Origin: Terasakiispira papahanaumokuakeensis
Lineage (GTDB): Bacteria; Pseudomonadota; Gammaproteobacteria; Pseudomonadales; Halomonadaceae
Assembly: GCF_001709345.1 (NCBI RefSeq)
Contig: NZ_MDTQ01000001.1
Coordinates: 372,001 to 436,000, forward strand
DNA: 64,000 bases
Direction of reading: 5' to 3'
Shown: positions 1 through 5,635 of the stretch, piece by piece
How positions within the stretch are numbered: position 1 is the stretch's first letter
How the letters are laid out: every line of letters begins with the position of its first letter
Notes under the pieces: generated by a model
Told to the model about the DNA's origin: nothing
The model's database searches: none
The model's input: only the letters and a program-made list of their open reading frames with translations
Position numbers and translations under genes: made by a program

Positions 1-666
1 TTAAGTCAGCCCTTGTCTGTTCTTGAAGCGGGTGGCGGATTGGGGCAGACCTCAGCGTGGCTGGCTCGACAGGGCCATCAGGTGATCATGGCAGAGCCTG
101 CTGAAGCCATGCGTGAACGGGCAAGATTGCGCATTGAACGTCATCGCGGGATTGTTTTAGATGCGGACATTCAGGCGTTAGTGCACCAGCTACCTGACCC
201 CGACCAGCAATTTGACTTGGGCGTTTGTCATGCGGTGATGGAGTGGCTTTATCAACCTGAGGCTGTTCTGCCTGCTTTATTCAAGCATATTAAGCCCGGT
301 GGTTGGCTGTCTCTGATGTTCTTTAATGAAGATGCCTTGTTGATGTCTAATGTGATTAAAGGCAACTGGGAAAAAGTATTGGCAGGGCGTTTGGCCGGAA
401 CCGGGCAGCGTCAGCGCTTGACGCCGATTTCGCCAAGGCGGCCTGACCAAGTTTTCCCGTGGCTGACCGCTCAGGGGTTTGATATTCATCATGTGAGCGG
501 CATTCGAGTGTTTCATGATTACTTACGTCGCCAGCTGCCGCCTCAGGCCAAACCTGAACTCCTGGTGTCACTAGAACGGCGTTATATGCAACAAGACCCA
601 TTCTGGCGTTTGGGGCGTTATATCTTAGTCCATGCCCGCAAACGCCATCTATCACATCAGGTCTGA
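1..666 (+). CDS. cmoM: tRNA 5-carboxymethoxyuridine methyltransferase CmoM (5' end outside window)
   Basis: SAM-dependent methyltransferase that esterifies 5-carboxymethoxyuridine at tRNA position 34 to its methyl ester (mcmo5U), widening wobble decoding. The frame is open from base 1, so the N-terminus (roughly 40 residues judged from the E. coli protein) lies outside the window. Visible signs are the SAM-binding loop LEAGGGLGQTSAWLA at the very start, the HAVMEW segment, the PGGWLSLMFFNEDALLM strand-loop, the VFHDYLR block and the C-terminal RYMQQDPFWRLGRYI, all matching CmoM from memory. The gene converges on the secreted protein gene at 683-1888 with only 16 bp between stop codons. The other two enzymes of this pathway, CmoA and CmoB, are encoded about 31 kb away in the same window. 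Confidence 0.9.
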   Translation, partial: LSQPLSVLEAGGGLGQTSAWLARQGHQVIMAEPAEAMRERARLRIERHRGIVLDADIQALVHQLPDPDQQFDLGVCHAVMEWLYQPEAVLPALFKHIKPGGWLSLMFFNEDALLMSNVIKGNWEKVLAGRLAGTGQRQRLTPISPRRPDQVFPWLTAQGFDIHHVSGIRVFHDYLRRQLPPQAKPELLVSLERRYMQQDPFWRLGRYILVHARKRHLSHQV

Positions 667-682
667 GCTGAGGCTCACTCAT

Positions 683-1888
683 TTACTGAGGATCAACGGC
701 TTCCAGCTTGAGTTCGTAGTTATTGCTACCTGAGTGCGATGAGCCGAATTTCTGACCTTTCACAAAAATTTGGTACTGGCCCGCCGGGAGTTGAGGGCTG
801 AAGTCAACATCGCCATCGAAGCCTTCACCGCTATCTTGGGCAACCACTTCACCTTGAGCATTACGCACCTCAGCCTCAATCCGGTAAGCCCCATTAGCGT
901 TAAAGAAGCTGGAGCTACTGATATGCACTTGCAGAGGCTCAGCCAGTTCAAAGCTCATAGCCAAGCCATTCGTGCGAATATTCAGGCTAGTGACCAATGT
1001 CTCAAAAGTGTGGGGCGCGTCAATCTCTTGTGTGGCTTCCTCTTGAGGGGAATGCTCTTGAGATGAGTGTGCTTGAGATGAGTGCGCTTGAGTTACAGAC
1101 TGTTGAGCGGCGGTGTTCTGGCTGTCTGGTTTGTCAGTTAAGCCCGTTGCAGCTGTTGCTGATTCAGTTGTTTGGGAAGACGCTTCTTTTGCGTGAGAAG
1201 GGCCCGTTTGTGGTGTTGTGTGTTGCGTTGTCTGAGGCGGCGTTTCAGGCTGAACAGCGGTTCTCTTGTCTGTATCAGGGGATTGTGACTCAGTTTCAGA
1301 TGATGAGGTCGTTTTTGACCGACCTAGGCGTGTGACCTGCTCCGGGTCGTGCACCAGCGCACTGGTTTGATTGGGGTCAGTTTTACGTAAAGGTTGGGAA
1401 TCTGCCACCGCTCCAGGGCGCTCTTTGCCTTGAGCATCCAAACCTAGCACATTGACATAGTAGCGGGCTCGGTTTTGGGCCTGGCTGCCGAAAAATTGGC
1501 CGTTGACTTTCAGCGTATAAGTGCCTGGGTCTAGGTGCTGTTTGAACTTGAGCCCACCGGTCTGGCCGTTAGCCTCTTGATGGGTGATTTCTTGGCCTTC
1601 ATCGTTTAGTAACGTGGCCGCTAAAGTGTATTGTTGAGAAACCTGCGCCATGATTTGGCCATTAATCTCAAATAAGCCACCTTGCTTGACGGTAAACGTA
1701 TGGGTTTGAGGTTGGCCAAAGGTATAGCTTTGGCTGTGAGCATCTTGGTCGCTGTTCAGAAAACGGGTCAGGTCCATCTGTTTGCCTTCGCTGCGAAAGC
1801 GATCCTGAACGTCACTGGCCAGAACCAGCGGTGCGCTGCAGGTCAGGGCGATACAGGCCAGCAGTGTTGAGGGCATACGGGGTTTCAT
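683..1888 (-). CDS. Secreted protein with two copies of a beta-sandwich-like domain and a Ser/Thr/Gln-rich linker
   Basis: Family not recognised. I chose the ATG at 1888 over the upstream GTG at 1894 because AGAGAAG lies about 10 nt before it and the signal peptide then starts cleanly. Residues 1-25 form a Sec signal peptide (basic start, hydrophobic core, cleavage after LVLA). Residues about 55-150 and 290-400 are recognisably the same domain: each has a Y-[TR]-[LI] strand, an N-x-[EQ]-G-[QE] turn, then L-x-[PA]-G-x-Y followed by a V-[NK]-G-Q-x-FGS block and a closing Y-[VE]-[NL] strand. They are joined by about 130 residues rich in S, T, Q and E, including a 15-bp tandem repeat (1043-1087). 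The domain resembles bacterial pre-peptidase-like or carbohydrate-binding beta-sandwiches only in general shape. Likely periplasmic or extracellular; no catalytic motif is evident. Confidence 0.75.
   Translation of the reverse strand: MKPRMPSTLLACIALTCSAPLVLASDVQDRFRSEGKQMDLTRFLNSDQDAHSQSYTFGQPQTHTFTVKQGGLFEINGQIMAQVSQQYTLAATLLNDEGQEITHQEANGQTGGLKFKQHLDPGTYTLKVNGQFFGSQAQNRARYYVNVLGLDAQGKERPGAVADSQPLRKTDPNQTSALVHDPEQVTRLGRSKTTSSSETESQSPDTDKRTAVQPETPPQTTQHTTPQTGPSHAKEASSQTTESATAATGLTDKPDSQNTAAQQSVTQAHSSQAHSSQEHSPQEEATQEIDAPHTFETLVTSLNIRTNGLAMSFELAEPLQVHISSSSFFNANGAYRIEAEVRNAQGEVVAQDSGEGFDGDVDFSPQLPAGQYQIFVKGQKFGSSHSGSNNYELKLEAVDPQ
1043..1087. repeat. 15-bp coding tandem repeat, three copies
   Basis: Three head-to-tail 15-bp units at 1043-1057, 1058-1072 and 1073-1087; copies 2 and 3 (TTGAGATGAGTGTGC and TTGAGATGAGTGCGC) differ at one base. 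On the minus strand they encode the repeated AHSSQ/EHSSQ-like pentapeptides in the linker of the secreted protein. The unit is a multiple of three, so the frame is kept. Confidence 0.85.
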
Positions 1889-2028
1889 AAGCACTCACTT
1901 CTCTGAAAATAAAAGTCGTAGATTAACACCCTTTGATTTGAGGTGTCAGGATAAAGGTATCGGGGTTGCTCGACGATTTCTGAGCGGCCTGTGTGATTGG
2001 CCTCCTCATCAAGTAGACTAAAACAAGA

Positions 2029-2055
2029 AAGGCCAGCCTGTCTCAGGCTGGCCTT
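2029..2055. terminator. Bidirectional Rho-independent terminator after the porin gene
   Basis: A perfect 12-bp stem, AAGGCCAGCCTG / CAGGCTGGCCTT, closes a TCT loop. It is followed by TTGTTT on the plus strand and by TTTCTTGTTTTA on the minus strand. It lies 27 bp beyond the porin stop codon and would end that transcript; it could also stop read-through from the opposite side. Confidence 0.85.
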
Positions 2056-2081
2056 TTGTTTAACTCATCATTGAAGATGAA

Positions 2082-3089
2082 TTAGAACATATAGGTGACA
2101 CCGACACCGAAGCCGTCGCCAGCGTCTTCATCACGGTCACGCTTAGCGATTTCTGCCCAAGTGTACATGGCGTCAGAAATGTTATAAGTGCCGCCTACGA
2201 TGAACTCATTGCGCTTGTCATCAACGCTATCATCGTCAACATTCTGGTAGGCACCGTAGACATCACCCATGCCATAGCCATAACGTGCACCAATACCCGC
2301 ATAGGTGACGTCAGAATTGCTTGCTTCAGCATCAAATACTTCATATTTCGCTGATAGGCGCAGTGCATTGATGGTGTACTGTGCATTGACACCGTAGCGA
2401 TCACCCAGATCATCGCCAGTTACGATATCGGTCTCATCGTCTTGAATGCCTAATGTGTCATAAACAGCCGCGACAGAGAAGGCACCTACGGCATATTTAA
2501 CACCGCCATAGAATGTTTGCTCTGAGCTGTTGGTCGAATTTTCGCTTTCTGCATCGCCCTTATAGTTCATGCCAAGAGCAAGTTGAACGCCACCCATGAC
2601 CGGTGACATATAGCGAATCTGATCAGTTTCGGCGCTACCACTTTTGTTGCCGTTGGCAAAGCCATTGGAATCGGTGGCATCAAAATATTCGTTATTGGTC
2701 AGCGGGTCTTGAATCCAGTCATCCATTACGGTGTCGAAAGAACCGATACGGAAGTCACCGAAGTTACCTTTAACACCGATGTAAGCTTGATCGCCACCAT
2801 CTTGGCGAGGACCGGTTTTCATTTCTGTGGCATCGATGTCGTCAATTTCAAGCTTCATGTAACCGATGACATCATTGGTGATCTGATGTTGAGCAGCAAA
2901 ACCGAAAGTGGTGCCGTTATCAAACAAGTCATCTCGTGAATCACCAGCATCATCTTTGATGTTGCGATAACCAATCTGGACGTTGCCGTAAACATCCAGT
3001 GTCGTGCCGTCTTCGTTATAAACAGTAGCAGCTTGGGCAGAGGAAGCAGCAGCCAGGGCTACAGCAGTCGCTAACAGCGTCTTTTTCAT
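2082..3089 (-). CDS. General outer-membrane porin (Gram-negative porin family)
   Basis: A 335-residue trimeric-porin-type protein for passive diffusion of small solutes. It has a typical Sec signal peptide (MKKTLLATAVALAAASSAQA, cleaved before ATVYNEDG), then the start strand TLDVYGNVQIGYRN. It is rich in acidic residues and alternating beta-strands, has loop segments such as KLEIDDIDAT and a PEFGR-like equivalent region, and ends with the terminal aromatic (VTYMF) needed for Bam-mediated insertion. The strongly acidic composition (many DDD/DED clusters) fits a salt-exposed surface. It is monocistronic, with a strong terminator at 2029-2055 and a 557-bp upstream region. The exact substrate class cannot be read from sequence; the fold and export assignment is secure. 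Confidence 0.9.
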   Translation of the reverse strand: MKKTLLATAVALAAASSAQAATVYNEDGTTLDVYGNVQIGYRNIKDDAGDSRDDLFDNGTTFGFAAQHQITNDVIGYMKLEIDDIDATEMKTGPRQDGGDQAYIGVKGNFGDFRIGSFDTVMDDWIQDPLTNNEYFDATDSNGFANGNKSGSAETDQIRYMSPVMGGVQLALGMNYKGDAESENSTNSSEQTFYGGVKYAVGAFSVAAVYDTLGIQDDETDIVTGDDLGDRYGVNAQYTINALRLSAKYEVFDAEASNSDVTYAGIGARYGYGMGDVYGAYQNVDDDSVDDKRNEFIVGGTYNISDAMYTWAEIAKRDRDEDAGDGFGVGVTYMF

Positions 3090-5550: not shown

Positions 5551-5584
5551 TGCTTCATTCGGCATCTCAGCGTCATTAGCTCTC

Positions 5585-5635
5585 TAGGCTTTATTAACCC
5601 TTAGGTTTTATTAACCCCTAGGTTTTATTAACCCA
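5585..5635. repeat. 17-bp tandem repeat, three copies
   Basis: Units TAGGCTTTATTAACCCT (5585-5601), TAGGTTTTATTAACCCC (5602-5618) and TAGGTTTTATTAACCCA (5619-5635) fill the convergent gap between rsgA and epmA. The copies differ at one or two bases. No terminator hairpin is evident in this gap. Confidence 0.9.

Follow-up and report, generated by a model that had tools for sequence, protein, structure and literature searches.

The stretch of DNA analysed here (the window, 64,000 nucleotides of the genome of Terasakiispira papahanaumokuakeensis) carries a coding sequence for a two-domain, PPC-like protein with an export signal at 683..1888 (-), with its ATG at 1888 and its stop codon at 683-685. 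The coordinates and the frame given in the initial annotation were borne out by the ORF list, the product being 401 aa long, and the family profile recovered this CDS in its own genome with E 5.8e-129. Directly upstream and on the same strand lies a gene for a general porin (Porin_4, Pfam E 1.4e-42; 2082..3089 (-)), and a strong terminator-like stem of 13 bp is found between the two genes (2028..2056 (-)). On the other side, a convergent gene encodes a cmoM-like SAM-dependent methyltransferase identified with Pfam (1..666 (+), its start lying before the window), a neighbour that some other family genomes also have close to the gene.

A Sec-type signal peptide was recognized at residues 1-24 (...PLVLA|SDV; 1817..1888 (-)) from the sequence and the alignment of relatives, and from this signal-peptide-like N-terminus we infer that the protein is exported. 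Anchoring as a lipoprotein through the residues LLAC (9-12) was considered and rejected, because these residues leave too little length for a signal and the aligned relatives of the window protein do not share a lipobox cysteine. The mature proteins are acidic, with a computed pI of 4.2-5.4 for the eight family members listed. The window protein had no credible match to a catalytic family in Pfam or NCBIfam, and no peptidase domain was found either in it (Pfam, NCBIfam) or in the aligned full-length relatives. A defence origin was discarded as well, since PADLOC returned no match and the gene resides in housekeeping neighbourhoods across the family. The window protein closes with the final strand of domain 2. 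It shows no sorting tail of the type IX or PEP-CTERM kind, no autotransporter and no outer-membrane anchor, the matches to Por_Secre_tail and PEP_CTERM_FxDxF being weak and sub-threshold. These features bear on the proposal that the protein is a polysaccharide binder or a two-headed adhesin. Its binding part fits the fold class described below, which includes collagen- and glycan-binding domains and of which some solved members bind proteins or glycans, as illustrated by the match to the carbohydrate-binding domain of a pectate lyase (8wc1, Foldseek E 4e-4). However, plain Sec export predicts a periplasmic location and no surface anchor was seen, so that an adhesin for polysaccharide or for the surface of another cell appears unlikely.

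The two halves of the protein were then compared. A BLASTP alignment of the N and C halves gave 25% identity over 103 columns (E 2e-8), and the N and C family profiles were aligned by hhalign with a probability of 99.7% (E 2.3e-25), whereas 20 column-shuffled control profiles gave 0.0-0.2%. The two halves are homologous, which supports the idea of an exported protein with a duplicated domain. The ordered motifs that had led to this idea are present in both halves, as D-P-G-T-Y and V-N-G-Q-F-FGS in the N half and as A-G-Q-Y and V-K-G-Q-K-FGS in the C half. A tree built from the 104 domains of 52 proteins separated all N domains from all C domains at one branch (SH-aLRT 99), and over these 52 proteins the N-C identity was 27.9% within proteins and 27.7% between proteins. 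Given the two clades and the equal identity within and between proteins, the most fitting reading is that the domain was duplicated once, long ago, before the family radiated. A recent duplication by unequal exchange was rejected on the same grounds, as the N and C clades are separate and the halves are equally alike within and between proteins. Besides, the two domain clades extend across the 52 proteins, indicating that both copies were kept throughout and suggesting that both matter.

According to the AlphaFold2 models, the protein consists of two beta-sandwiches that share their strand order. Domain 1 is predicted to be an 8-strand PPC-like beta-sandwich at about residues 48-156 (1421..1747 (-)), and the bulk of domain 2, homologous to it, lies at about residues 292-401 (686..1015 (-)). 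The best fold match of domain 1 was the jelly roll of Tk-SP (3afg; VIA Z 10.5, rmsd 2.6, 98 aligned) and that of domain 2 the ColG collagen-binding domain (5iku; VIA Z 10.4, rmsd 2.5, 101 aligned). The predicted model of domain 2 also matched the PPC domain of the Bacillus anthracis collagenase (5sv5; Z 9.7, rmsd 3.0, 96 aligned). The fold matches are led by binding or accessory domains, namely those of Tk-SP, ColG/ColH and the B. anthracis collagenase, at Z scores that exceed a large background of about 8 by only a small margin. A search of PDB sequences gave nothing credible, the best match being an antibody chain (6o89, E 0.015). Against the Pfam PPC family (PF04151, gathering cut-off 25.9 bits), domain 1 of the window protein scored 18.7 bits (E 0.0034), below the cut-off, as did the family members L005 (24.5 bits) and L011 (21.2 bits), while the orthologue L014 passed it with 32.4 bits; at E<=0.1, PPC was matched by 11 of 17 family members. 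Both domains show, on predicted models, the beta-sandwich fold of solved PPC domains. As modelled, both halves thus have the structure of the PPC/collagen-binding-domain (CBD) fold class, and their sequences point weakly to it too. The initial annotation had regarded the domain as one that could not be placed, a view that no longer holds now that structure prediction and fold search have returned PPC-like beta-sandwiches for both halves (Z about 10) and one orthologue passes Pfam PPC. The fold family reached in this way is well described, but functions vary within it, and a shared fold is no proof of a shared function. Moreover, the most conserved residues of the family are mainly structural (G, P, Y, L), and no conserved binding patch was demonstrated. 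That this fold class and the duplication are both correctly assigned is highly probable.

The window protein shares with the PPC domain the predicted beta-sandwich and the PG-x-Y motif before the penultimate strand. It differs in its setting, since PPC domains usually, if not strictly, occur as extensions of secreted peptidases, whereas here two stand-alone copies without a protease make up one exported protein, the second of them containing a predicted disordered loop of about 100 residues. As to ColG and ColH of Hathewaya histolytica, their CBDs are the best fold matches of domain 2 (Z about 10) and ColG carries two of them in tandem, but identity is about 16-22%, the likeness is one of predicted fold, and the window protein is not fused to a collagenase. 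Similarly, the matching domain of Tk-SP is part of a subtilisin-like protease. A parallel in architecture is offered by DeCLIC, whose NTD1 and NTD2 form two periplasmic tandem lobes, although these are fused to an ion channel. The study of DeCLIC independently assigned one common architecture to Tk-SP, PliG and the collagen-binding domain (PMC12664993). This grouping by fold, together with the match of PliG to domain 2 (4dzg; Z 8.4, rmsd 3.5, 100 aligned), would agree with a periplasmic protein that inhibits an attacking hydrolase, for instance a two-headed inhibitor of lysozyme resembling PliG. Yet the PliG score is no better than those of many unrelated entries near Z 8 and no PDB chain gave a credible sequence match, which makes such an inhibitor very unlikely. 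Weak profile matches to DVUA0089 (NF038127) and to FxDxF PEP-CTERM (NF038126), at best 7e-4 and 9e-5, probably arise through the shared fold; the latter reached 22.7 of the 50 bits needed to pass, and the window protein has no PEP-CTERM sorting tail that could be seen.

The repeat-rich stretch between the two motif sets, initially described as a linker, is placed differently by the models. A conserved segment at about residues 173-190 (1319..1372 (-); AlphaFold2 and VIA alignment), with the common family pattern SxFVRxxDxVATL, is predicted to fold with domain 2. Indeed, residues 178-187 had a block pLDDT of 95 in a prediction without domain 1, and the alignment to ColG (4hpk, VIA) starts at residue 173 of the window protein, corresponding to ColG 891; both results place the segment with domain 2 in the model. 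In ColG/ColH, the region aligned to it is the N-terminal linker, the site of calcium-binding ligands. As a consequence, the connection between the domains would be short (about residues 157-172), and the repeat-rich stretch at about residues 191-291 (1016..1318 (-)) is modelled as a disordered loop within domain 2, its pLDDT being mostly <50 in the full model and about 50 in the model without domain 1, with a length that varies in relatives. The low complexity itself is real, residues 166-288 consisting for 80% of A/G/S/T/P/E/Q/D, but in the models it sits inside domain 2, not between the domains. The reported 15-bp tandem repeat was also recovered (TRF; 1042..1092, 3.4 copies, 83% matches) and encodes H-S-S/P-Q-A/E repeats. 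The 137 residues that separate the halves of the window protein are the longest such stretch among 53 relatives (others 68-131). Weak matches of the low-complexity stretch to RodZ, DnaX and Mitofilin were set aside as an effect of composition. The placement of the loop is less sure in part of one clade (the context-B subset described below, L068, L075, L076 and kin), in which the middle segments are divergent and the SxFVRxxDxVATL motif is weak.

The window protein itself matched in 21 of 58 relatives. With the family profile, matches were obtained in 202 of 275 Halomonadaceae genomes, about 130 of which hold near full-length copies (counted from the listed matches of the profile search), and no match at all was found in the remaining 73. 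The weaker matches in other Halomonadaceae genomes include single-domain relatives. A sample of 369 genomes of the class gave no match outside Halomonadaceae, its two positives being the window genome and one further family member. Within what was searched, the protein family is specific to Halomonadaceae. This restriction to a salt-loving family, together with the low pI of the mature proteins and the binding of calcium by the related domains of Tk-SP, collagenase and DeCLIC (PMC12664993), would be compatible with a calcium- or salt-responsive periplasmic stabilizer or spacer that has no specific ligand and whose acidity and loop serve solubility or crowding. Nevertheless, halophile proteins generally have an acidic pI, a conserved acidic cluster like the known calcium ligands was not demonstrated, and a full-length copy is absent from about half of the family genomes, so this explanation seems improbable.

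Two genomic contexts were observed. In context A (36 copies of the tree set), the order is lgt-thyA-folA-proQ-porin-gene-GGDEF-cmoM-like, with some neighbours absent in some genomes; in context B (14 copies), it is pdxB-rlmL-pyrD-gene-gdhB. The porin, proQ, GGDEF and methyltransferase neighbours were named by Pfam and the others from their sequences. The window represents a rearranged context A, in which the porin and the methyltransferase still adjoin the gene while thyA lies about 36 kb away. Apart from one long-branch A copy among them, the B copies cluster on the tree, which fits one relocation. As a porin gene immediately precedes this one in the same orientation at 37 loci examined, including the rearranged locus of the window, the protein could be an accessory or assembly factor that binds the porin or barrel intermediates in the periplasm. 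However, a terminator-like hairpin stands between both genes in 36 of these 37 loci, 73 of the 275 family genomes lack any match, and in seven B genomes checked thyA and the porin are still no more than a few kb apart, without the gene beside the porin, the gene being located between pyrD and gdhB. Because of the hairpin and of the porins without the gene, the link looks like conserved synteny with no obligatory partnership, and a porin factor is quite unlikely.

Our preferred reading, with a probability of about 0.42, is that of a soluble, periplasmic or secreted, non-catalytic two-site binding protein of Halomonadaceae built of two PPC/CBD-type sandwiches. Each sandwich would present a face or a loop to a glycan or protein in the envelope or outside the cell, and the extended disordered loop in domain 2 may serve as a flexible spacer or arm. 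The duplication and its age, the fold class of the models, the range and the two contexts were computed and the export signal was read from the sequence; from these we infer binding, two-site action and the role of the loop. This is in line with the binding of collagen by the PPC-containing segment of the Grimontia hollisae collagenase and by the ColG/ColH domains (PMC6168687), although collagen itself is not indicated for the window protein. The papers searched on the Halomonas exoproteome, periplasm and porin yielded nothing usable on this protein or subfamily. More tentatively, it may be a two-headed, Halomonadaceae-specific protein of the envelope in which a disordered loop, grown by repeats and changing fast, breaks up the second PPC-like sandwich behind its first strand; if true, a binding domain that itself displays such an arm would be an architecture not yet described for the PPC class. 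With the two-site reading, a domain of unknown family becomes a testable exported binding protein, present in about half of the sampled genomes of a family used in biotechnology, and a stand-alone, protease-free setting is provided for asking what PPC-like domains bind.

Two further proteins of the window genome are a lipoprotein whose PPC domain passes the Pfam cut-off (L085, 25-1785 (+)) and a single-domain lipoprotein-like relative (L084, 1387-1923 (-)); this pair represents PPC-like exported proteins with lipoprotein-type signals, one of them with several PPC-like repeats. In genome G084, the porin-adjoining copy is split into two overlapping ORFs (L081, 7459-8531, and L080, 6460-7476), and a second copy elsewhere in the genome forms one ORF. 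The copy of genome G142 (L127) lies in three ORFs. Finally, three head-to-tail copies of the 17-bp unit CTAGGTTTTATTAACCC were observed at positions 5584-5634 of the window, between rsgA-like and epmA-like genes.
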